In this document: positions 2,555-58,296 of the stretch, piece by piece
How positions within the stretch are numbered: position 1 is the stretch's first letter
How the letters are laid out: every line of letters begins with the position of its first letter
Origin: an aff. Roholtiella sp. LEGE 12411
GTDB lineage: Bacteria > Cyanobacteriota > Cyanobacteriia > Cyanobacteriales > Nostocaceae
Reading direction: 5' to 3'
DNA length: 58,819 nucleotides
NCBI RefSeq assembly: GCF_015206995.1
Contig: NZ_JADEXR010000025.1
Span: 1 to 58,819 of the forward strand
Program-made: the position numbers and the translations under genes
The notes under the pieces: generated by a model
Database searches by the model: none
What the model saw: only the letters and a program-made list of their open reading frames with translations
Told to the model about the DNA's origin: nothing

Positions 2555-4084
2555 ATGCTTAACACAGGTTTGTTGAAATTCCTCGCCCAGCCAGCTGCGG
2601 GTGTGGCCTTGTTAGCGGCTGTCAATGTCGCTGTGCCATCTGCCAGCCTAGCTCAGGGACAACCAGGATTACCCACCAATCAAATAACACCACTTACGCA
2701 AATAACACCAATAACACCCACTACACAAACATCACCCACTACACAAACCTCAACTACTACACAAATAGATACCAATTACTCATTAGGAGGCGGCGATCGC
2801 ATACGTGTAAATGTATTTGAAGTACCTGAATATACAGGTGAATATCAAATTCCTCCAGGTGGAGCGATTAACTTACCTTTGATCGGTAGTGTACCCATTC
2901 TGGGACTAACAACGGAACAAGCTTCTGATGAAATTGCCAGAAGATACTCTCGCTTTCTTAAACGTCCCCTGATTTCAATCAATCTATTATCGCCTCGTCC
3001 CGTAAACGTCTTTGTTGCCGGAGAGGTAACACGTCCAGGGGCTTATACTCTAAGTTTAAGCGGCGGCGCAGGAGACAATCCAGGTGTACAATATCCAACT
3101 GTCTTAGCTGCACTCACCACAGCGCAGGGGACGCTTGGTAGTGCGGATATGACTCAAGTGCAATTACGGCGTAAGCAAGGGCGAGGCTCAGAGCAAGTAG
3201 TCACGCTCAATTTGGAAGAACTCATCCAGACAGGTAGATTAACGCAGGATATTACCTTGCGGGATGGAGACACCATAGTCGTGCCAACTGCAACCAAATT
3301 TGACTTAGCAAGAGCACGCAACTTATCTGCCGCTAACTTTGCTGCCAGCCCAAACACACCCCGTACCGTCGCTATTGTTGGTGAAGTCAACCGTCCTGGC
3401 TCGTATCTTGTCACTACAGGTAGCACAGAAGCCACTACCGCCGCCACAGGCAATAGTCAGCCAACTGGCAGCGGACTGCCAACTATAACGCGGACAATTC
3501 AATTAGCTGGAGGAATTACGCCACAAGCGAATGTTCGCAATATTATCCTACGCCGACCTACAAGAAGCGGCTCAGAACAAACTGTAGATATCAATCTTTG
3601 GCAACTTTTAGAGAGTGGTGATATTAATCAAGATTTAATTGTGCAAGATGGAGATACGATTTTTATTCCTACGGCAACTGAGATTAGCCCAGCAGAAGCT
3701 ACCCAATTAGCTACTACTACTTTGTCTCCTGGACGCATTCAAGTTGGTGTGGTAGGTGAAGTTAAAAGACCAGGAGCTGTAGATATTCAGCCTAATAGCT
3801 CTTTAAATCAAGCACTACTGGCTGCGGGTGGATTCAACGATGCTAGAGCTAGCAGAGGTACTGTAGATTTGGTTAGGCTCAACCCTAATGGTTCTGTGAC
3901 TAAACGTCAAGTCAAAGTGGATTTCTCACAAGGTATTAATGAGGAGACTAATCCTATACTCCGCAATAATGATGTTGTGCTAGTTAGCCGCTCTGGCATA
4001 GCCAAGACTAGCGATACCTTAAGCACCATAGCAGGGCCTCTAGGCACGATCATAAATATTCTCAGGTTTGTTACTGGTATTTAG
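2555..4084 (+). CDS. Polysaccharide biosynthesis/export protein, Wza-like with SLBB repeats
   Basis: Probable outer-membrane/periplasmic component of an exopolysaccharide export machine. A signal peptide spans about residues 1-33 (hydrophobic core GVALLAAVNVAV, cleavage near SLA-QG). It is followed by a Thr/Pro/Gln-rich spacer (about 36-75), a Poly_export domain (LGGGDRIRVNVFEVPEYTG..., about 77-165) and three SLBB-type beta-grasp modules, recognisable from repeated GEV.RPG (V)AGEVTRPGAYTL, VGEVNRPGSYLV, VGEVKRPGAVDI. The C-terminal end (LGTIINILRFVTGI) is hydrophobic. At 509 residues it is longer than E. coli Wza, as is usual in cyanobacteria. The adjacent genes do not belong to an EPS operon, so it is a stand-alone export gene here. 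Confidence 0.9.
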   Translation: MLNTGLLKFLAQPAAGVALLAAVNVAVPSASLAQGQPGLPTNQITPLTQITPITPTTQTSPTTQTSTTTQIDTNYSLGGGDRIRVNVFEVPEYTGEYQIPPGGAINLPLIGSVPILGLTTEQASDEIARRYSRFLKRPLISINLLSPRPVNVFVAGEVTRPGAYTLSLSGGAGDNPGVQYPTVLAALTTAQGTLGSADMTQVQLRRKQGRGSEQVVTLNLEELIQTGRLTQDITLRDGDTIVVPTATKFDLARARNLSAANFAASPNTPRTVAIVGEVNRPGSYLVTTGSTEATTAATGNSQPTGSGLPTITRTIQLAGGITPQANVRNIILRRPTRSGSEQTVDINLWQLLESGDINQDLIVQDGDTIFIPTATEISPAEATQLATTTLSPGRIQVGVVGEVKRPGAVDIQPNSSLNQALLAAGGFNDARASRGTVDLVRLNPNGSVTKRQVKVDFSQGINEETNPILRNNDVVLVSRSGIAKTSDTLSTIAGPLGTIINILRFVTGI

Positions 4085-4097
4085 ATAGGTTTACAAA

Positions 4098-4130
4098 CTG
4101 GGGACGCTGCTCAATCCTCCTCGTCCCCAG
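4098..4130 (+). terminator. Probable intrinsic terminator of the export gene
   Basis: CTGGGGACG at 4098-4106 pairs perfectly with CGTCCCCAG at 4122-4130, giving a 9-bp GC-rich stem with a 15-nt loop, 14 bases after the stop codon. The following tract is ATTTCT rather than a pure T-run, so termination efficiency is uncertain. Confidence 0.55.
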
Positions 4131-4180
4131 ATTTCTCCAAAAGTGCATTTTGACCAATAAAGTTATGTGTTATTCCTAAC

Positions 4181-4538
4181 TAATAGGACTAGCCCTTTCA
4201 AGGTGAGCATATTGTACTATCAAAATTTTTACGGCATTTAAAGCATCGGCTGAAATTGAACAAGGAATTTATGCATTCACCTCCAAATTTTTGGACTGTA
4301 AATTAAGCGATCGCCTGAGCCAAAGTCACAAAATTGGGTTAAAAACATCATTTATTTCATAGTACAAACGTTTACCTTGAAAGGGCTAGTCCTATTAGTA
4401 GCCCTTTCAAGGTGGTGAAATTGGGAACGAAGATTGGTTATTTCAACCTTTAAAAAGCCCAAAAGCTGAGCGGAGGATTTGAGATGGTAGCACTGAAACA
4501 ACGCATCTTCATTGGTCAGCTTGAAAGGGCTAGTCCTA
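4181..4538. repeat. Four-copy CTTGAAAGGGCTA(GTCCTA) module with a perfect hairpin
   Basis: The word CTTGAAAGGGCTAGTCCTA occurs as direct copies at about 4376-4394 and 4520-4538, and inverted at 4183-4203. A fourth, shorter inverted copy, TAGCCCTTTCAAGGT at 4399-4413, pairs perfectly with ACCTTGAAAGGGCTA at 4374-4388, a 15-bp stem around a 10-nt loop. The outer inverted copies enclose about 190 bp, as in a MITE. A 67-codon open frame on the minus strand (4352-4555) is largely built of this repeat and is not called as a gene. No transposase is present. Confidence 0.65.
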
Positions 4539-4551
4539 CCTAACTCAGGAC

Positions 4552-5154
4552 TCAAGACTCAAGACTTACTTTAACTTCATCGGCAAAATTGCCCCAACGG
4601 ACAAAGCAAAAGGGGCCGGCGATAGAACCCCAGAGATGTTCATCACTTTCTAAATCCCTTCCTCGGTCAAGGCTGAGAAAGTTTTCAGCGTCAATCTCAA
4701 ATTCATTATCAAGATAAGTGTTTTTACCGTCACGAACTACGATGCAGCCTTTACCAGGTTCAACCCTGCCTTTGAAGCTCTTACCTGTCCACTCTACAAC
4801 CATGTTGCAACCTGGCATTTTCTCCAGTTGGTCAACAGATAAGTCTTTGAGGCGTTCGGGATCGCGGGATGCGCCGTAAAACTTTTGTTCTTCCTTAATT
4901 GTGTAGTGTTCGATGAGAATATGGTTTTCTGCCTTAATCAACTTCATTATCCTTATCCGGTAGGGTTGAGTGAGCATAAAATCATAAGCTTGTTCGAGAA
5001 ACAAGCTGATCCCTGAGAACAATTCCCAAGGCAGGGGACGGATACACACACGAATATGGGCATATAAAGGCGGATTTTCAAAAGCTTGTTCTTGATTGCT
5101 AAAGTCAGCGGCCATCCAGCGAGCTAAAGTAGCAATATCCGTAGAATGAGTCAT
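4552..5154 (-). CDS. cpcT: Phycobiliprotein chromophore lyase, CpcT/CpeT family
   Basis: Attaches phycocyanobilin to a beta-subunit cysteine (Cys-beta155 type site) of phycobiliproteins; soluble, acts during phycobilisome assembly. The 200-residue length, the opening DIATLARWMAADFSNQEQAF, the centre PGCNMVVEWTGKSFKGRVEP and the LDRGRDLESDEHLWGSIAGP stretch followed by FCFVRW are characteristic of CpcT. The family has more than one paralogue in Nostocales (CpcT and CpeT-like), so the subunit specificity is inferred. It stands alone, in opposite orientation to both neighbours, with repeats on both sides. The ATG at 5154 fits the conserved start MTHSTDIATLARW. Confidence 0.9.
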   Translation of the reverse strand: MTHSTDIATLARWMAADFSNQEQAFENPPLYAHIRVCIRPLPWELFSGISLFLEQAYDFMLTQPYRIRIMKLIKAENHILIEHYTIKEEQKFYGASRDPERLKDLSVDQLEKMPGCNMVVEWTGKSFKGRVEPGKGCIVVRDGKNTYLDNEFEIDAENFLSLDRGRDLESDEHLWGSIAGPFCFVRWGNFADEVKVSLES

Positions 5155-50718: not shown

Positions 50719-51144
50719 ATGTCAATTTTGAAAAGAGTTCCCTGGGTTTCTTTGGCACTAGAATTGCTTAGCTACAGTACCTTGGGCTGGGTGATATCTG
50801 AGACACGTCCCCCTTTGTTTGTATGGCTGGTAGTTGTGGTTGCCATCTTACTTTTACTGATAACTTTGACCACTCCTTGGTCGAAGATGGCACGTTATTA
50901 TACCGTTTTATTTAAATCAAATACCAGGTCTTTCGGTGTTGCCGTTTTAGCAGCTTTCTTATTCTTTGTCATGCTTGCCTGGTTTCGGGTATTTCTTGAT
51001 ACCTTGCTTATCATTTCTGCGACCATATTAGTCAAAATAGAATTTCAAACAGCTGGTTTTAGAGAAGGGGTAGCCTTTGGGATTGCGTCTATCTTTTCGT
51101 TGGCAGGTTTAGCTTTAGGTGCGCTAGTTTACAACTTAATATAA
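50719..51144 (+). CDS. Small polytopic membrane protein of unknown function
   Basis: A 141-residue protein with four predicted helices (about 10-28, 33-50, 72-106 possibly two, 117-140). The sequence FFVMLAWFRVFLDTLLIISA and the closing LAGLALGALVYNLI resemble small cyanobacterial membrane proteins without assigned function. No catalytic motifs. It ends about 80 bp before the CAST, and an adjacent hairpin (51205-51221) may be its terminator. Confidence 0.7.
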   Translation: MSILKRVPWVSLALELLSYSTLGWVISETRPPLFVWLVVVVAILLLLITLTTPWSKMARYYTVLFKSNTRSFGVAVLAAFLFFVMLAWFRVFLDTLLIISATILVKIEFQTAGFREGVAFGIASIFSLAGLALGALVYNLI

Positions 51145-51204
51145 GCTGTCTTCTACACATTGCTAGAGGTAAAAAGTACTAGAACTAGTCTAGAGTAGGT
51201 AGGT

Positions 51205-51221
51205 TAGCCTCTTAGAGGCTA
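51205..51221 (+). terminator. Short hairpin just left of the CAST insertion
   Basis: TAGCCTC (51205-51211) pairs with GAGGCTA (51215-51221), with GGT/ACC extending the arms imperfectly. It may end transcription of the 50719 gene; no T-run follows, as the CAST has inserted there. Confidence 0.4.
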
Positions 51222-51230
51222 GAACCTTTA

Positions 51231-51273
51231 TGTACATTAACTAATTATTTGTCAATTTAACAAAATATTGTCA
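51231..51273 (+). repeat. tnsC-side transposon end with two TnsB-binding-like sites
   Basis: TTAACTAATTATTTGTCA (51237-51254) and TTAACAAAATATTGTCA (51257-51273) share the TTAAC(N8-10)GTCA pattern with the four sites of the other end. The second site contains the TTG used as the tnsC start. Normally tnsB separates this end from tnsC. Confidence 0.8.
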
Positions 51274-52068
51274 CAGTATTCTAAATACCTAAAACCCTTA
51301 CAGGCGGAGATTCAACGATTAAATCGTAAAGGTTTTGTCCCACTTGAACAAGTGCAAATTCTCCATGATTGGTTGGAAGGAAAGCGCCAATCAAGACAAT
51401 CTGGGCGTGTGGTAGGTGAGTCGAGAACGGGAAAAACAATGGGTTGTGATGCCTATAGGCTTAGGAATAAACCCTCTCAAGTTGCAGGAAAACCCCCAAC
51501 TGTACCTGTAGCTTATATCCAAATTCCCCAGGAGTGCGGTGCTAAGGAATTATTTTGGGTAATTATGGAGCATTTTAAATATCAAGTAACTAAAGGAACA
51601 GTGGCAGAAATTCGAGATAGAACACTGCGGGTTCTCAAAGGTTGCGGGGTGGAGATGTTGATTATTGATGAAGCCGATCGCTTTAAGCCAAAAACTTTTG
51701 CGGAAGTGCGTGATATTTTTGACAGGTTGGAAATAGCAGTGATTTTGGCAGGAACCGATCGCTTAGATGCAGTGATTAAGCGGGATGAGCAGGTTTACAA
51801 CCGTTTTCGATCTTGTCACCGTTTTGGAAAGATGTCAGGGGAAGATTTTAAGCGAACGGTGGATATTTGGGAGAAGCAAATACTAAGATTGCCAGTTGCT
51901 TCCAACCTTTCGAGTAAGACGATGTTGAAGACATTAGGGGAAGCAACTGGAGGTTATATCGGTTTGATGGATATGATTCTCCGAGAGACTGCAATCCGGG
52001 CTTTAAAAAAGGGACTGCAAAAAATTGACTTGGAAACTTTGAAGGAAGTAGCTGCTGAGTACAAGTGA
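51268..52068 (+). CDS. tnsC: TnsC AAA+ ATPase of a type V-K CAST, 5' end trimmed
   Basis: The ATPase that polymerises on target DNA and bridges the Cas12k-TniQ complex to TnsB. Walker A is VVGESRTGKT (residues 48-57), Walker B is MLIIDEADR (130-138), and AGTDRLDAVIKRDEQVYNRF matches ShTnsC closely. From LQAEI at residue 11 onward it aligns with ShTnsC; the ten residues before it (SQYSKYLKP) differ. Its initiation codon TTG (51268) lies inside the transposon-end repeat, so the native start has been lost by the deletion that removed tnsB, and the ten or so missing residues may or may not matter. It overlaps tniQ (TGATG). Confidence 0.93.
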   Translation: MSQYSKYLKPLQAEIQRLNRKGFVPLEQVQILHDWLEGKRQSRQSGRVVGESRTGKTMGCDAYRLRNKPSQVAGKPPTVPVAYIQIPQECGAKELFWVIMEHFKYQVTKGTVAEIRDRTLRVLKGCGVEMLIIDEADRFKPKTFAEVRDIFDRLEIAVILAGTDRLDAVIKRDEQVYNRFRSCHRFGKMSGEDFKRTVDIWEKQILRLPVASNLSSKTMLKTLGEATGGYIGLMDMILRETAIRALKKGLQKIDLETLKEVAAEYK

Positions 52069-52571
52069 TGGAAGTGGAAAATATTAAGCCTTGGCTATTT
52101 AGAGTTCAACCATATCAAGGAGAAAGCCTGAGTCATTTTTTGGGGCGCTTTCGACGGGCAAATGATTTAACCCCAACTGGCTTAGGTAAAGCAGCAGGGC
52201 TTGGGGGTGCGATCGCCCGATGGGAAAAGTTTCGCTTTAATCCTCCTCCTACCCGTCAGCAGTTAGAAGCATTAGCTGTTGTGGTGGGGGTTGATGCTGA
52301 TAGGTTAGCGCACATGTTACCACCTGCTGGGGTGGGGATGAAACTTGAGCCGATTCGGTTATGTGCTGTTTGTTATACCGAGTCGCCTTGTCACAAAATT
52401 GAGTGGCAGTTTAAAGTGACTCAAAGGTGCGATCGCCACAAGTTAAGCTTGCTTTCAGAATGTCCCAACTGTGGGGCAAGATTTAAGTTTCCAGCGTTAT
52501 GGGCGGATGGTTGGTGTCAAAGGTGTTTTATGACATTTACTGATATGGCACAGTGTCAGAAGCATTATTGA
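52068..52571 (+). CDS. tniQ: TniQ (TnsD-like target-complex protein)
   Basis: A 167-residue protein very like ShTniQ: IKPWLFRVQPYQGESLSHFL, GRFRRANDLTPTGLGKAAGL, an internal helix-turn-helix region, and MLPPAGVGM-EPIRLCAVCYTESPCH. Two zinc sites are evident, C99-x-x-C102 with C121/H124, and C132-x-x-C135 with C150-x-x-C153. TniQ links Cas12k R-loops to TnsC. The ATG at 52068 overlaps the tnsC stop; a GTG at 52065 is an alternative. It is complete, unlike the CAST genes around it. Confidence 0.94.
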   Translation: MEVENIKPWLFRVQPYQGESLSHFLGRFRRANDLTPTGLGKAAGLGGAIARWEKFRFNPPPTRQQLEALAVVVGVDADRLAHMLPPAGVGMKLEPIRLCAVCYTESPCHKIEWQFKVTQRCDRHKLSLLSECPNCGARFKFPALWADGWCQRCFMTFTDMAQCQKHY

Positions 52572-52608
52572 ATGATAATTAAATATTATGAAGCACCGTT
52601 GGACTTCT

Positions 52609-52690
52609 CACCACAATTTACGCTTGCTATCAGAATGTTCAAAAGTCGTGGTAAAGTGTAATATTCGGCGTTATTAGTGGATGGAAAGAT
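52609..52690 (+). pseudogene. Decayed second copy of the tniQ 3' region
   Basis: CACCACAATTTACGCTTGCT, then ATCAGAATGT, and GCGTTATTAGTGGATGG follow the tniQ segment 52437-52512 (CGCCACAAGTTAAGCTTGCT, TTCAGAATGT, GCGTTATGGGCGGATGG) at roughly two thirds identity. It has no open frame. It suggests an older, diverged tniQ lay next to the present one. Confidence 0.55.
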
Positions 52691-52774
52691 CATAAATTAT
52701 TAGTACTACTTGATTCTTCGCTTTTCCAACAGATTGTATGAGTCGGTTAACCATCAAGCATTCTCTAAAAAAAA

Positions 52775-53434
52775 TCAATAAATAGCTATGTGCAATACTT
52801 TCTTCTCTGCAACAGTTATCGTTTTATCGAAAAGGTTACTTGAAAACGTAAGGTCATCTGTAAATTTCCTAAAAGCAGTATTGTAAAAACTACGAATAAT
52901 AAAGGATATGAAGGTACTCGGTGCGATTGGGGAACAAACAGGTATTCTACAATTTTCAAACTGTCCCAAAGTTAGATGGCATTTGGGGTGATCTAATTCT
53001 TTATGATTGTCTGGATCATAATCGAATCTAATTGGTACTGGTAATATATTTTTTGCTATTATATCTGCATATATTTCCTCTGCTTCATAAATAGTAGGCT
53101 CATTCTGGAAAACTTCTAAAAATGGTGATGGTAAAAAGGCAAGCCTATGTGAAATTAACTCAGATTTTCTATACGTATATAAAAGTTGTATTAAGGCACC
53201 ATCAATCATTTTGAAATTGTAGTTTTTACCTATGTCTAGTTCATTATATATGTTCTTATAATCAATATTTTTCAGTGCTATTGATAGATTCTGCATACCA
53301 GAATATGCAATTTCATAACTATCTCTACCAAGAGATGTAGATGAGGGAAAATTTTGTTGATCGCATAAACTAACTTCTATTAGTTTCTGAGTAATGTATT
53401 CAATTTCTCTATAAATTTCTTGATGACTAGTCAT
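52775..53434 (-). CDS. DUF2290 protein, likely part of the cargo module
   Basis: A 219-residue protein. The C-terminal half, PVPIRFDYDPDNHKELDHPK then CHLTLGQFENCRIPVCSPIA and FISFIIRSFYNTAFRKF, matches the DUF2290 family I recall beside NERD/UvrD-type helicases. A cluster of conserved residues (RFDYD, HPKCH, NCRIPV) hints at a nuclease or metal site, but no function is established. Its ATG (53434) is placed just two bases before the helicase gene stop on the same strand, so the two are one operon. AT-rich relative to tnsC/tniQ, in agreement with recent acquisition as cargo. Confidence 0.75.
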   Translation of the reverse strand: MTSHQEIYREIEYITQKLIEVSLCDQQNFPSSTSLGRDSYEIAYSGMQNLSIALKNIDYKNIYNELDIGKNYNFKMIDGALIQLLYTYRKSELISHRLAFLPSPFLEVFQNEPTIYEAEEIYADIIAKNILPVPIRFDYDPDNHKELDHPKCHLTLGQFENCRIPVCSPIAPSTFISFIIRSFYNTAFRKFTDDLTFSSNLFDKTITVAEKKVLHIAIY

Positions 53435-53435
53435 T

Positions 53436-55553
53436 TTAAAATAGTTGATTTTTTAACTTTTCTATTAATTCTGGTGACAAATCTTCTTTCTGCATAACAC
53501 CCTTCTCTAAATCCTCAACAATATCTTTTAAATTTCTTTGGTTCTGAATTCTACGCTCACGCTCTTTAGGACTCATATCTCTATTGATAACATTCATTCT
53601 TATTCGTTCTTCTGCTGTAGGATAGGTAAATTGAAGAACAAAGTTTCTTTTTTTCACTTCTTCAAATTCTTTCACCAAACCCCTCATGTCTTCGCCATAC
53701 CCCAATACTCTTAACCAAGCTTTGCTTCTTGTCATGGCAGTAAACAAGATATTTCTTTTTCTGGAAAGCTCTGTACCAGAGAAGCATTCATGAGCATTTA
53801 TAACATATATCATCGCAGCTTCATTCCCCTTTGCTCTATAGATACCTGTGAAAGTAACTGCTTCTTCACTAAAAAATTCGTCGCGGGAATTTGTGACTCC
53901 AGCTAGATTAGAATTAATCTTTTTTTCAAAGAGTAAAGCCCTAGAGCTTCCAACGGCATTTTTAGTTGTAAACGGGTTACAATGAATAATCATTATGTCA
54001 TCATACTTTAATTCATCTTCCCTAAGATTCTTCTCTATTTCCTTGACTAACCATTCATTTTGTTCGCGGTTATTATTAAAGGACTTAAATATAATTAAGT
54101 CATCAATAGCTGAGTGATTTTCGAGGAACATTGGACTAGTATTGCTAGTTCTACTAAGCTTTACAGGCTTTCCATCTTCTAGATTTCCTTCTTCTAACTC
54201 ATAACCAATATCTCTCCATAAACCTGCATCATCAAACATCTGGATTAATCCTTCATTTCTATATATTCCAAAACCCAAAGCATGTGCAGAAGTTAGAAGT
54301 GGGCGAGAATTTCTATAGCATTTCTCTAATATAATGTCTTGTTTTGGTTTTCCTGATCTGTTTTGAAGTTGAACATATGGATTACCATAAGTATCTTTTC
54401 CAAAGATTTCTTCTGGTGATTCCATTGTCTTATTACTCAGACTTTGTAACTCATCGTATGCATAAACTAGTCTTTTCGGCTGCTTCAAAATTTTGTAACA
54501 AAGTTGCAGAAAATGTTTAGAAAAATCTTGTGCTTCATCAACTAGTATTGCATCATAATACTGCTCAAAGCTGTGGATTTTATCGAGTGCTTCCTCACAA
54601 ACTTTGTCAAATTCTTGACCAGATACATTAGTAATATTTTTTGCTGCATTTAAATCCCTGAATTCAATATTATGTTTTTTACATATTTCATAATAAATTC
54701 CTTCCGTTGAGGGATTTCCCCAAGCGTGAATAATTTTTATTTTTTCCCAGTCCGGCTCTTCACTAGTATGTTCAATACTAAAAGTGTTAATAAAGTGTTT
54801 AAACTGATTTTTAAGAGAGCGAGTATTAAAAGTAACAGCAATATTCCAATCAGGATGTTTTGCCTGTAAATATGCAACTTTAAGAGCTAGAACTATAGTT
54901 TTACCTGAGCCGGCAAGTCCTCTAATTCGCTGTACGCCTTCTACAGTTTCAAGGACAGCAGCACTCTAATTATTATCTAGGTTGGCGATAGAATCTTCCA
55001 GTTTCTGGAGTTTTGCGCCCCTAGAATCTTCTCGTTTAACATAGCTACGCTGCTTTCTTTTTCTGATGGAAGTTATAGCTTGTATAACTGAGCTAAGGCT
55101 CTCAAAATATTGGTTGTGTTCCCATTTACAAGATTTCAAGTACTCTTCTAGGGTAGGCTCATCAGTTATGATTGGATAGTCTTCTGAAACATTATTTGGT
55201 GTATTACTCAACGCAGGTGCAAATGTTACGACACTGATTTGCACCATTAGTTTCCTTCTTTCAATCAGAGTTTTATGCTGAAGTAGTTTTGATTGAACTT
55301 TGGTTACACTTTCATCTTGTGCCTCCTCTATATTTATGTTAGTACTAGTTCCCTCAATAACATTGAAAATAACAACACCATGCTCTCTGGATAATAAAAG
55401 AGCATCAATTTGATAACCACCTTGAGGCGTTCCTATTATTGGGTATCCCAGATATAAGCTGCCATCGATATCGGTCCTCTTCTCAAAGTACTCAGCTAGC
55501 CTTCTAGATGAAACTGGCTTATTATCTACATCACCTCGAATGACATTAACCAT
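53436..55553 (-). pseudogene. NERD-nuclease/UvrD-type helicase, interrupted by an in-frame amber codon
   Basis: Reading both halves together gives 705 residues. Part 1 (54966-55553, 195 aa) is a NERD nuclease-related domain: GGYQIDALLLSREHGVVIFN resembles the (D/E)xK-type strand pair. TAG at 54966-54968 then interrupts. Part 2 continues in the same frame without any ATG, GTG or TTG until 54488: SAAVLETVEGVQRIRGLAGS then GKTIVLALK (Walker A), AILVDEAQDFSKHF (motif II), and the C-terminal TGIYRAKGNEAAMIYVINAH and NILFTAMTRSKAWLRVLGYG (motifs V/VI). The single stop and the otherwise clean frame point to a recent nonsense mutation, suppression, or a sequencing error. The family is linked with anti-phage modules. 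Confidence 0.8.
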
Positions 55554-55564
55554 GAGATATTGCT

Positions 55565-55672
55565 TTACCTAAAGTATCTACCTCTATTATCTTTAAATTT
55601 GAAGTAATCGTCCCATGCTATTTCATATCTTTCGATGTTCCTCCAAATCGCATTTGAGTAAAGCTGAATCAT
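55565..55672 (-). CDS. Small open frame upstream of the NERD gene (35 aa)
   Basis: MIQLYSNAIWRNIERYEIAW then DDYFKFKDNRGRYFR ends 12 bases before the NERD start. The composition is protein-like and the frame continues upstream as NETQL without an ATG. It may be the 3' end of another cargo gene cut off by rearrangement. Low confidence; no ribosome site. Confidence 0.3.
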   Translation of the reverse strand: MIQLYSNAIWRNIERYEIAWDDYFKFKDNRGRYFR

Positions 55673-55904
55673 GAGTTGAGTCTCATTATCAGATGTGCGA
55701 TCGCACTTTCCAAGCCAAACTCTACACCATTAAGCGATCGCTCCATGAATTGTCTTCCTAGTCCCTGCTGAACCAATCAGCTTACGGCAATACATGAGAT
55801 GCTTATTGGTACTCTCTATCAGAAAACTACACCAAACGGTAAAAAAATGTGAGTTCGACGGTTAGAGAAAGCGTAAATACCATTTCCGCTTTATCCCAGA
55901 AGTT
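55673..55904. other. Cargo-region gap with HIP1-like sites
   Basis: No gene is seen. It carries two GCGATCG sites and no trace of cas12k in either strand. Confidence 0.4.
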
Positions 55905-56054
55905 TTAACTTTTTCCCAACTTCAGCGCCAACTTTTGATAAATTTCGTCCAACCACACCGGAATTACAGGTTTACCTTCATCCAAAGAAGCGATCGCCTT
56001 TTTTCGGTCAAACTCCACAACCTTAAGCGATCGCTCCTGTGCTTGCAACAACAT
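55905..56054 (-). pseudogene. Fragment of an unknown protein gene (49-67 codons)
   Basis: From ATG at 56054: MLLQAQERSLKVVEFDRKKA then IASLDEGKPVIPVWLDEIYQ and KLALKLGKS, ending at TAA 55905. The frame is open upstream to about 56110 as ASRQSGKDQEPELFISGKGKRF with a stop before it. The residues look conserved-protein-like, but I recognise no family; it is probably a leftover of older cargo. It is antisense to the tracrRNA promoter region. Confidence 0.4.
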
Positions 56055-56210
56055 AAAGCGCTTACCTTTACCTGAAATAAATAACTCTGGCTCTTGATCT
56101 TTGCCAGATTGCCTGGAAGCACAGAAAAATTATGCCAAACAGTATCGGCATAGTGTCCATCAGTGGAGTTATGGCAGATTGACAAAAATTTGAACCTTGA
56201 AAATAAAATA

Positions 56211-56458
56211 AGTAATAGCGCCGCAGTTCATGTTGTAATCAACCGCTGAACTGTGAAAAGTTTGGGTTAGTTTGACTGTGGGAACACAGTCGTGCTTTCT
56301 GACCCTAGTAGCTGCCCACCTTGAAGCTGCTGTCTGTTGTAGACACGAATCAGGTGCGCCCCCAGTAATAGAGGTGCGGGTTTACCGCAGTGGTGGCGTG
56401 ACCGTTTCACCTTCGACCAAGGAGGAACCCACCTTAATTATTTTTGATCCGGGTTAAA
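56211..56458 (+). ncRNA. Cas12k-type tracrRNA
   Basis: Sequence AATAGCGCCGCAGTTCATG, GGGTTAGTTTGACTGTG, ACACAGTCGTGCTTTCTGAC, CCTAGTAGCTGCC, AGGTGCGCCCCCAGTAATAG and ACCAAGGAGGAACCCACC follow the long ShCAST tracrRNA piece by piece. The GACTGTGGGAACACAGTC and GAAGCTGCTGTCTG segments are its hairpins, and the terminal GGAACCCACC is complementary to the GGTGGGTT of the homing guide (56772-56779). Start and end are approximate, set by the ShCAST comparison. An 61-codon ORF in it is not a gene. Confidence 0.88.
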
Positions 56459-56468
56459 GATTCAAGCA

Positions 56469-56575
56469 GTTTCAACTCCCGTTATTAAATTAGGAGGATT
56501 GAAAGATTCTTAGAGGAAAAGGTTAGCGCATCCTTGGGTGCTTTAACAACCTTTTCAAACGGATGGGTTGAAAAA
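56469..56575 (+). CRISPR. Minimal CRISPR array (one full repeat, one 35-nt spacer, one degenerate repeat)
   Basis: A 37-nt repeat at 56469-56505 begins GTTTCAACTCCCG and ends GGAGGATTGAAAG, like type V-K repeats. The following 35 nt (56506-56540) are spacer-like, and 56541-56575 (CTTTAACAACC...GGATGGGTTGAAAAA) looks like a degenerate last repeat. The spacer region also folds on its own (AAAAGGTT/AACCTTTT with GCATCC/GGGTGC inside), so part of it could be structure and not a true spacer. No protospacer is visible in this window. Confidence 0.65.
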
Positions 56576-56612
56576 ACCGACAGGGAGCGAGTTAAAAGCC
56601 TTTCCATCTATA

Positions 56613-56697
56613 AGGCTTATTGAAGGTTGAGTACTAACACATTTTCAGATACGCGTAGGCGTAGCCCGCGGTAGGCATCGCTTTTTTCAATAAGCCT
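56613..56697. repeat. Inverted-repeat insertion inside the CRISPR-to-guide spacer
   Basis: AGGCTTATTGAA (56613-56624) and TTCAATAAGCCT (56686-56697) flank the dispersed palindrome GCGTAGGCGTAGCCCGCGG / GTAGGCATCGC (about 56654-56681). A 22-nt hairpin, GTTTTAGTA-GTTA-TACTAAAAC, follows at 56736-56757, just before the homing guide. Confidence 0.6.
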
Positions 56698-56771
56698 CTA
56701 TCAAGTTTGAGTTGAGAAAGCTTCTACATATTAAGGTTTTAGTAGTTATACTAAAACTTTACTAGATTTAT

Positions 56772-56801
56772 GGTGGGTTGAAAGGTAAGGCAGAGGTCTG
56801 C
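56772..56801 (+). ncRNA. Delocalised homing crRNA targeting tRNA-Cys
   Basis: A truncated repeat GGTGGGTTGAAAG (56772-56784) is followed by the 17-nt spacer GTAAGGCAGAGGTCTGC (56785-56801). The same 17 nt occur on the minus strand of the tRNA-Cys gene (56974-56958), directly preceded there by GTG, a GTN PAM. Short 17-nt spacers with partial repeats are the known mode by which V-K CASTs find tRNA genes. The spacer sits about 110 bp inside the tRNA-proximal end. Confidence 0.9.
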
Positions 56802-56825
56802 CTTTGTGATAGGTATCCGTTTGTA

Positions 56826-56914
56826 GTTATGACAAAAAACCTGTTAACAGTGACATCATTTTGTTAAACATGACATCAATCTGTTAACAGTGACAAATAA
56901 TTAGTTAATGTACA
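56826..56914 (+). repeat. CRISPR-side transposon end with four TnsB-binding-like sites
   Basis: Four direct copies of TGAC(N9-10)TTAA at 56830-56847, 56851-56867, 56871-56887 and 56891-56908, spaced about 20 bp, followed by the terminal TGTACA (56909-56914). The outermost 24 bp are the exact complement of 51231-51254. Confidence 0.88.
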
Positions 56915-56920
56915 CTTTAA

Positions 56921-56991
<71 letters not shown>

Positions 56992-57003
56992 AGACCTTAG
57001 CTA

Positions 57004-57090
57004 GACCCTATTCAGCTACCCTTTAAGCTACCCTCTTGACTTCTAGCTACCATTCAGCTACCTTAAGTAAGGTAAAGGTTATAGGTAGCT
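57004..57090. repeat. AGCTACC direct repeats before the integrase
   Basis: Five copies of (C/T)AGCTACC or its variants at about 57015-57066 and its complement GGTAGCT at 57082-57088. The words recur around 58430-58555 as GGTAGTA. They may be binding sites for the integrase or a partner (arm-type sites), or the remains of an attachment site. Confidence 0.5.
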
Positions 57091-57093
57091 AAC

Positions 57094-58296
57094 ATGATGC
57101 AACCAATGAGGACAAGACAAGCCAATGGAACAGTAGGCATTGAAGACCATAGAGGTAAACTCAGGCTTAGGTTGCCTACCATGCTGACCAAAGAAGGTCA
57201 GAGCAGGTATGTAATGACTGGTCTAGATGCATCTGACTATAACAGAAAACAGATGCAAAAGCTAGTAGCGCTAATGAATGAGGAAATAGCTACAGGGTCA
57301 TTTGACTGCACTCTTGAGCGCTATAAGAGGGAAATAGAGGGTTACAACAGACCTCAGCTAACTATAGTCAAACCAACCGCGCCTCAGACTGACTTAGGGC
57401 AACTATGGGCGGCTTATTGCCAGTATATGCAACCTCAGCTAGCTACAACTACCTACAGAAGGGACTATGCAAGGAAGTATACCAACCATATAGCCGCCTT
57501 ACCTATTAAGGACTTAAACCAGTCAGTAGCCATTAGAAACCATTTATTAGCTACCCTATCCACTAATGCAGCTAAGAGAGTACTAACCTACCTATCAGCT
57601 TGCTGTAAATGGGCTGTAGCCTCTGGGCTGGTTAAAGATAACCCCTTCACAGGTATGTCAGAGGACATTAAGCTACCTAAGCATGATAATGATGCCATTG
57701 ACCCCTTCAGCAAACAGGAGATGGATAGCATAATAACTGCCTTTGAGCAGCATAAACCGCATTATGCGCCATTTGTTAAGTTCTTGTTCTGGACTGGTTG
57801 TAGGACAGGAGAAGCAATAGGGCTAACCTGGGGTCATATCAACCCTGAATGTACTCAAATAACCTTCTCTGAGTCTTATGACAGCGCCTTGAACATCAGA
57901 AAGACAACTAAGACAGGTAAGGCTAGGAAGTTTCCCTGTAATACCAAACTCAGAGCGCTATTACTCTCCATCAAACCGCCTAATACCCTCCCAGATACCC
58001 CGGTATTCCTAGCGCCAAAAGGGGGTATGGTTAATAATACAAAGTTTAGTACTCAAATATGGAAGGGCGGCAAACAGGGAGATAATAACTATCATGGGGT
58101 AATGCAGAAGCTAATAGAAGAAGGCGCTATTGACCGCTACAGATGCCCTTATAATACCCGCCATACCTTCATAACCCTAATGCTGGCAGAAGGGCTAACA
58201 GTCAGCGCTGTTGCTAAGTTAGTTGGTAATAGCCCTGCCATCATCCTAGCCCATTATGCAGGTAATACCCATCGTATAGAGCTACCAGAGTTATAG
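57094..58296 (+). CDS. Tyrosine-type site-specific integrase
   Basis: A 400-residue phage/island integrase. An N-terminal arm-binding/core-binding region (about 1-190: GQLWAAYCQYMQPQLATTTY, NHLLATLSTNAAKRVLTYLS) is followed by a catalytic domain: WTGCRTGEAIGLTWGHI (Arg), RCPYNTRHTFITLMLAEGLT (H-x-x-R box RHTF) and SPAIILAHYAGNTHRIEL (Tyr). Codon use differs from neighbouring genes (many AGG, CTA, ATA and GAG; no HIP1 octamer), as expected for a mobile element. It lies 102 bp from the 5' end of the tRNA-Cys gene and points away from it. Confidence 0.9.
   Translation: MMQPMRTRQANGTVGIEDHRGKLRLRLPTMLTKEGQSRYVMTGLDASDYNRKQMQKLVALMNEEIATGSFDCTLERYKREIEGYNRPQLTIVKPTAPQTDLGQLWAAYCQYMQPQLATTTYRRDYARKYTNHIAALPIKDLNQSVAIRNHLLATLSTNAAKRVLTYLSACCKWAVASGLVKDNPFTGMSEDIKLPKHDNDAIDPFSKQEMDSIITAFEQHKPHYAPFVKFLFWTGCRTGEAIGLTWGHINPECTQITFSESYDSALNIRKTTKTGKARKFPCNTKLRALLLSIKPPNTLPDTPVFLAPKGGMVNNTKFSTQIWKGGKQGDNNYHGVMQKLIEEGAIDRYRCPYNTRHTFITLMLAEGLTVSAVAKLVGNSPAIILAHYAGNTHRIELPEL

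Follow-up and report, generated by a model that had tools for sequence, protein, structure and literature searches.

How should we read a type V-K CRISPR-associated transposon (CAST) that keeps perfect outer ends, a homing guide, tnsC and tniQ, but has lost both the transposase gene tnsB and the effector gene cas12k? Such an element occupies positions 51231-56914 of a 58,819-nucleotide stretch (contig NZ_JADEXR010000025.1, here called the window) from the cyanobacterium aff. Roholtiella sp. LEGE 12411. An earlier note, made from the letters alone, took it for a non-autonomous CAST, either mobilisable and still able to serve a relative or recently inactivated, and suggested that selection might have kept exactly these parts. 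From the comparisons described below, we consider it very probable that the element is a type V-K CAST in stepwise decay, by at least three internal deletions plus point mutations, inserted beside tRNA-Cys and unable to transpose alone. The last point is inferred, since both transposase and effector are missing, and it supports the earlier description of a non-autonomous derivative and inactivation product. It has the appearance of a known type of transposon that is decaying and no longer moves, not of a new system.

The element lies right beside tRNA-Cys, its termini are perfect inverted repeats (24/24 nt), and a direct duplication of CTTTA frames it, read directly at 51226-51230 on the right-end side and at 56915-56919 on the left-end side. 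Since exact 24-nt repeats surround a direct duplication and the same ends occur in relatives, the insertion is not a chance resemblance, and the repeats and duplication reported in the earlier note stand. By V-K convention (PMC9938897) the end facing the tRNA and the CRISPR part is called left, and the end towards tnsB is called right. The left end (56830-56914, minus strand, terminal repeat at 56891-56914) carries four TnsB-type sites in a site scan; the right end (51231-51297, plus strand), delimited by comparison with relatives, is cut to 67 bp and holds the terminal repeat (51231-51254) with TnsB-type sites 1 and 2. The attachment site, tRNA-Cys (56920-56991, minus strand), starts directly after the duplication and contains a protospacer at 56958-56974 with the protospacer-adjacent motif (PAM) GTG at 56975-56977 on the minus strand. 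Inside the element a truncated repeat with a 17-nt homing spacer (56770-56801, plus strand, spacer at 56785-56801; direct reading and sequence match) ends in GTTGAAAG, followed by the spacer GTAAGGCAGAGGTCTGC, which matches tRNA-Cys 56958-56974; the match as a whole spans 18 nt (56784-56801 against 56958-56975). PAM and left end are separated by 60 nt; the GTN PAM, the tRNA gene and the proximal left end agree with the V-K insertion rule, which PMC9938897 gives as a 17-nt anchor spacer, a GTN PAM and insertion at 46-82 nt. Most likely the element was inserted next to tRNA-Cys by its own homing guide, an event that we infer from the PAM, protospacer, 60-nt distance, duplication and orientation.

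Two transposition genes remain open, in the V-K order of tnsC followed by tniQ. The first (51268-52068, plus strand, 266 aa; PF05621 E 5.7e-30, PADLOC TnsC_V-K E 2.3e-96) has a TTG start, takes its first 10 residues from the right end and, when its frame is read, has no ATG upstream of the Walker A motif; the identity of its product to full-length relatives reaches 98%. The second, tniQ (52065-52571, plus strand), encodes 168 aa (PF06527 E 2.2e-11, PADLOC TniQ_V-K E 1.4e-78). A trans-activating CRISPR RNA (tracrRNA) region at 56190-56450 (plus strand) aligns to eight relatives, and a CRISPR remnant at 56469-56574 (plus strand, direct reading) comprises a 37-nt repeat (56469-56505), one spacer and a degenerate repeat (56540-56574), a layout that recurs with small differences in the relatives L050 and L039. 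The earlier note had named these genes, the tracrRNA, the remnant and the guide, and all of them were recovered, tnsC and tniQ by Pfam as well as by PADLOC V-K models. Judged by sequence, the tracrRNA, short array and truncated repeat with its spacer would be those of a ShCAST/AnCAST-type V-K CAST of the cvkR branch, with which the element also shares V-K TnsC and TniQ, a GTN PAM in a tRNA gene, the 60-nt PAM-to-left-end distance, a 5-bp duplication and TGTACA ends. In contrast to that type it has no tnsB, only a tail remnant of cas12k, half of cvkR, two right-end sites instead of five, and a replaced tnsC start.

These losses were located by comparison with 20 fetched stretches of relatives and 79 TnsC loci. 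Where the stretches are long enough, the order in relatives is right end, tnsB, tnsC, tniQ, cargo, cvkR (reverse), cas12k, tracrRNA, array and left end, and the element aligns to them piecewise, the alignment breaking cleanly at 51297/51298, at 56102/56104 and at 56171-56182. At junction 1 (51297-51298, about 1 nt of overlap) some 2.0 kb is gone (2,034 bp against L131, 1,995 bp against L062), comprising the inner right end, the tnsB upstream region, tnsB itself and the tnsC start: the right end now runs straight into tnsC near codon 23, with roughly the first 22 codons lost. Junction 2 (56102-56104), placed by alignment to relatives, lacks about 2.0-2.1 kb (1,986 bp against L038, 2,080 bp against L050), which held the greater part of cas12k together with the N-terminal half of cvkR. 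Alignment identifies what flanks it as the C-terminal half of cvkR, a MerR-type repressor gene (55916-56102, minus strand), and a cas12k C-terminal-region remnant (56104-56182, plus strand), 79 nt identical to L050, L039 and L076. At junction 3 (56171-56182), again by alignment, 137 bp of the cas12k end is absent relative to L050, between the copies of a 12-nt direct repeat; L050 has both copies, and in L039 and L076 the second copy carries two differences. A gap placed on a direct repeat is what slippage would be expected to give. Being separate, the three gaps call for no fewer than three events, and the retained set did not arise in one step; tnsC, tniQ, the tracrRNA, the guide and the outer ends would be what the deletions chanced to spare. 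The claimed loss of tnsB and cas12k was therefore right (no tnsB in the assembly, cas12k a 32-residue stretch with a stop), but it was not the only loss: about 22 tnsC codons and the N-terminal half of cvkR went too, and the cargo helicase acquired a stop.

Could the missing functions be supplied from elsewhere in the cell? The host assembly, a draft of 6.58 Mb in 338 contigs (99.54% complete), contains one TnsC only, that of the element. Two TnsB queries found no match in it, which leaves the element without the transposase gene of an autonomous V-K CAST; a V-K TnsB query matched nine of ten genomes, the host being the exception, with the matches in G001 (E 4.7e-14) and G004 (E 3.7e-7) weak or in fragments. 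For cas12k the assembly gave a single match below E 0.001, the stop-containing stretch of 32 residues at 56092-56187, which leaves no effector, and one other match at E 0.555. No second copy of the 24-nt end was found in the assembly at up to 3 mismatches. The search that the earlier note had proposed, for another V-K CAST with matching ends and its own tnsB and cas12k, consequently found none in this genome, and the idea that the element now supplies TnsC, TniQ and guides to a relative sharing its cell finds no support in an assembly where no second tnsC, no tnsB, no cas12k beyond the remnant and no further ends were found. A helper on an unassembled plasmid is possible.

The ends themselves had been called intact, which is correct for the outer 24-bp repeats and incorrect further in. 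In the site scan the right end has two TnsB-type sites, compared with five in L131, L064 and L062 and four scored in L050, whose first site is too mismatched for the scan; left-end counts are four in the element, L050 and L076 and three in L039. The full set at both ends, as in an autonomous V-K CAST, is therefore not present, the right end being short. Gel shifts with ShTnsB point to five right-end sites (PMC9527255), and another source, PMC9371665, draws four sites per end and supposes that internal sites fix orientation.

Also lost from the right end is a hairpin. Many relatives have a terminator-like stem, AAAACCCTG...CAGGGTTTT, in the interval that separates right-end sites 2 and 3. The survey covered 66 loci in which tnsB has its start, and located the right end in 36; under the settings used, stems of 11 or more pairs occurred in 16 of these 36 compared with 75 of 1,800 single-base shuffles. 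In the 15 alignable loci, which fall between L062 and L131 and have the stem some 60-100 bp in from the terminus, both sides had changed in 4 of its 12 pairs, with no correction for relatedness, and three pairs showed non-pairing sequences in more than one row. Deletion 1 cuts within the 5' arm, so the element has no hairpin. A scan of window positions 51100-52100 gave no terminator-like site and no plus-strand promoter-like site; the matching L131 stretch gave three sites of each kind, the terminator-like ones all at the stem and the promoter-like ones no more numerous than shuffled sequence yields. In relatives the hairpin may insulate tnsB-tnsC-tniQ from outside transcription. In Anabaena, tnsB is served by a promoter of its own (PMC9938897); if the same holds here, the tnsB promoter was in the deleted region and the promoter of tnsC-tniQ went with it. 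By this analogy tnsC-tniQ would have no promoter of their own, and their transcription would need an outside source after deletion 1 took the tnsB upstream region and the hairpin.

The retained parts also carry changes of their own. Private changes were counted and set beside those of four relatives (L062, L063, L064 and L131) in which tnsB, tnsC and tniQ are all whole. In tnsC the element has five nonsynonymous (two in the junction codon) and two synonymous changes, the four relatives 6 and 24; without the junction codon the comparison is 3:2 against 6:24 (Fisher p 0.095), a weak hint that tnsC leans to relaxed constraint, which speaks against maintenance, with counts for tnsC and tniQ too small to prove either way. 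The tracrRNA alignment (nine sequences, the element and eight relatives, columns 1-262) gives the element seven private departures at columns where the eight others agree, two of which are an insertion and six of which fall within 16 columns. The corresponding numbers are 2 in L050, 2 in L039, 1 in L076, 2 in L035, 6 in L038, 1 in L041, 2 in L043 and 10 in L161. We counted this for decay on the strength of the three sequences most similar to the element, with 2, 2 and 1 departures against its 7. Consensus pairs are broken twice in the element, twice in L050 and three times in L038, besides a gap that the element shares with its nearest relatives. That deletion 3 had removed the tracrRNA promoter was considered and dropped, the TTGACA-like motif ahead of the tracrRNA having been kept.

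How common is this state? The 79 TnsC loci were drawn by two TnsC peptide motifs, which places elements without tnsC outside the count; they are mostly V-K-like, the last seven being 45-47% identical and of unchecked type. Eight loci with less than 2.1 kb upstream were set apart (six show a piece of tnsB, two end at a contig edge). In all of the other 71, tnsB lies upstream of tnsC, at 90% or more in one piece in 57 and in part in 14. A pattern search found junction 1 in 1 of 217 family genomes, the host itself. When 388 genomes of the order were searched by DNA, with two candidates scored per genome, one other match ran over the junction position, in G140 at 68% identity; a shared deletion was ruled out there, as a whole tnsB precedes tnsC in the fetched locus. 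Viral contigs gave one weak TnsC relative only; 20 plasmid records matched cargo or short pieces, none covering 80%, and four phage records matched just around the tRNA. An element mobilised in trans would be expected in more than one copy, or with its deletion recurring at other sites; the host has one copy.

Decay of other V-K CASTs of the order takes related forms. L050 has a whole tnsB with tnsC, tniQ and cas12k broken, L052 has all four genes in part, L193 and L195 are further partial-loss elements, the right end of L195 (two sites) being joined to tniQ, and L187 and L190 are relics with a right end and a piece like the tnsC start; L187-L197 were picked by right-end DNA match, which biases the retention of outer sites there. 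With the degenerate L050, L052, L193 and L195 our element shares internal deletions and broken genes within recognisable ends; unlike them it keeps tnsC and tniQ whole and has lost tnsB entirely. Twelve degenerated Cas12k were omitted from a tree in PMC9938897.

Several observations pull against decay as the whole account. Open tnsC and tniQ, with perfect outer ends and duplication, mean that decay is recent or that parts are kept. The exact state is rare, tnsC without any tnsB being found in the element alone and in 0 of the 71 other loci. The tracrRNA difference is small, since the five other sequences include ones with 6 and 10 departures beside three with 1 or 2; L050, itself decayed, breaks as many consensus pairs as the element; and the TTGACA-like motif is still in place. 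In tniQ nonsynonymous private changes are not in excess: there are 5, beside 7 synonymous ones, and the four relatives have 22 and 23. The in-frame helicase stop and the junctions, moreover, come from the draft assembly alone.

What else could the element be? With two outermost right-end and four left-end TnsB-type sites remaining, an incoming helper could still mobilise it: TnsB and Cas12k from another replicon or strain would act on the ends, and its own guide would home. The perfect terminal repeats and duplication, at least two outermost sites at each end, the match of guide and protospacer, and the binding of two TnsB to a two-repeat substrate in gel shifts (PMC9527255) all fit this. We nevertheless think it unlikely, given that the host assembly has neither helper genes nor a second copy of the ends, that the junction is absent from all others of the 217 family genomes while the G140 overlap has a whole tnsB, and that three of five right-end sites are gone, internal sites being those supposed to fix orientation (PMC9371665). 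A literature search, from whose coverage subscription papers were mostly excluded, found no report of non-autonomous V-K elements. Rather improbable, too, is the proposal that tnsC-tniQ, read from host transcription since tnsB, its upstream region and the hairpin were lost, block or capture related V-K CASTs at tRNA-Cys, or that the short element is carried by such helpers via its own homing guide.

Under domestication, tnsC and tniQ, with or without the tracrRNA, would have been retained because they serve the host or maintain the cargo, for instance through target immunity or as a decoy against related CASTs. Both genes are open, and the loss of hairpin and tnsB puts a host gene that runs in the same direction (50719-51144) upstream of tnsC, with no terminator-like site in 51100-52100. 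That same interval has no plus-strand promoter-like site, however, and the tnsC frame lacks an ATG ahead of Walker A; private tnsC changes lean nonsynonymous, the cargo helicase is interrupted and the state is not common to relatives, so that we regard domestication as very unlikely. The selective retention suggested in the earlier note likewise lacks support, given at least three deletions, the helicase stop, the private tracrRNA changes, the loss of the tnsB upstream region and the tnsC changes. A complete element collapsed or mis-joined during assembly might be suspected in a draft of 338 contigs, but tnsB and most of cas12k are nowhere in the assembly, the three junctions lie inside one 58.8-kb contig, one of them at a slippage-type direct repeat, and a single mis-join could not yield three gaps; such an artefact is extremely improbable. 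Stepwise decay, which we prefer, would make this locus an example of how a V-K CAST can die beside a tRNA gene, separate deletions leaving its ends and guide readable, and a caution against annotating partial CASTs as mobile systems. If a helper could use the ends, guides and cargo could spread without a transposase of their own, which would matter more if true.

The cargo consists of two minus-strand genes, one for an open DUF2290 protein (52775-53434; PF10053 E 6.6e-65) and one for a helicase (53436-55553; 705 codons before the final stop) that is broken once, by an in-frame stop at codon 196. A helicase homologue of equal length and without interruption is present on pC052_A, a conjugative plasmid of Nostoc sp. 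C052, and the DUF2290-helicase cassette, both genes of which are matched by PADLOC models, is 92.4% identical in DNA over 2.9 kb between element and plasmid (L186:9001-11945). On pC052_A the cassette lies near restriction-modification genes with the helicase whole, whereas the CAST cargo copy has the stop; no CAST genes are listed near the plasmid cassette in a 20.9-kb stretch whose gene table is incomplete. With the stop set aside, the nonsynonymous and synonymous divergences of the two helicases (dN 0.038, dS 0.261) suggest that the gene was constrained over most of its divergence from the plasmid copy.

The tRNA-Cys of the window is the sole full-length one found in the host assembly. It differs from its counterparts in relatives in the T-arm half, and 5' of it is a gene for a tyrosine recombinase (window 56920-58296); the tRNA gene may have been moved or replaced together with an integrative element. 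For the empty site beside tRNA-Cys, the four other genomes of the genus offer no usable comparison, the left-flank gene and tRNA-Cys being on different contigs in them. A gene like window 4552-5154 occurs near tRNA-Cys in 7 of 20 fetched tRNA-Cys loci (window region noted, 4084-4552).

The nearest relative element (L050:3261-11551) is also by tRNA-Cys, with flanks AGCCT and GAAAG and no target duplication. Looked at as a miniature element, L192:8010-8092 is an 83-bp palindrome of two facing V-K right ends beside tRNA-like sequence, again with no target duplication. In L133:9170-10528 and L128:8408-10465, tnsB and tnsC are fused in one stop-free frame via internal deletions, the open frame in G002/L133 being 507 aa long.

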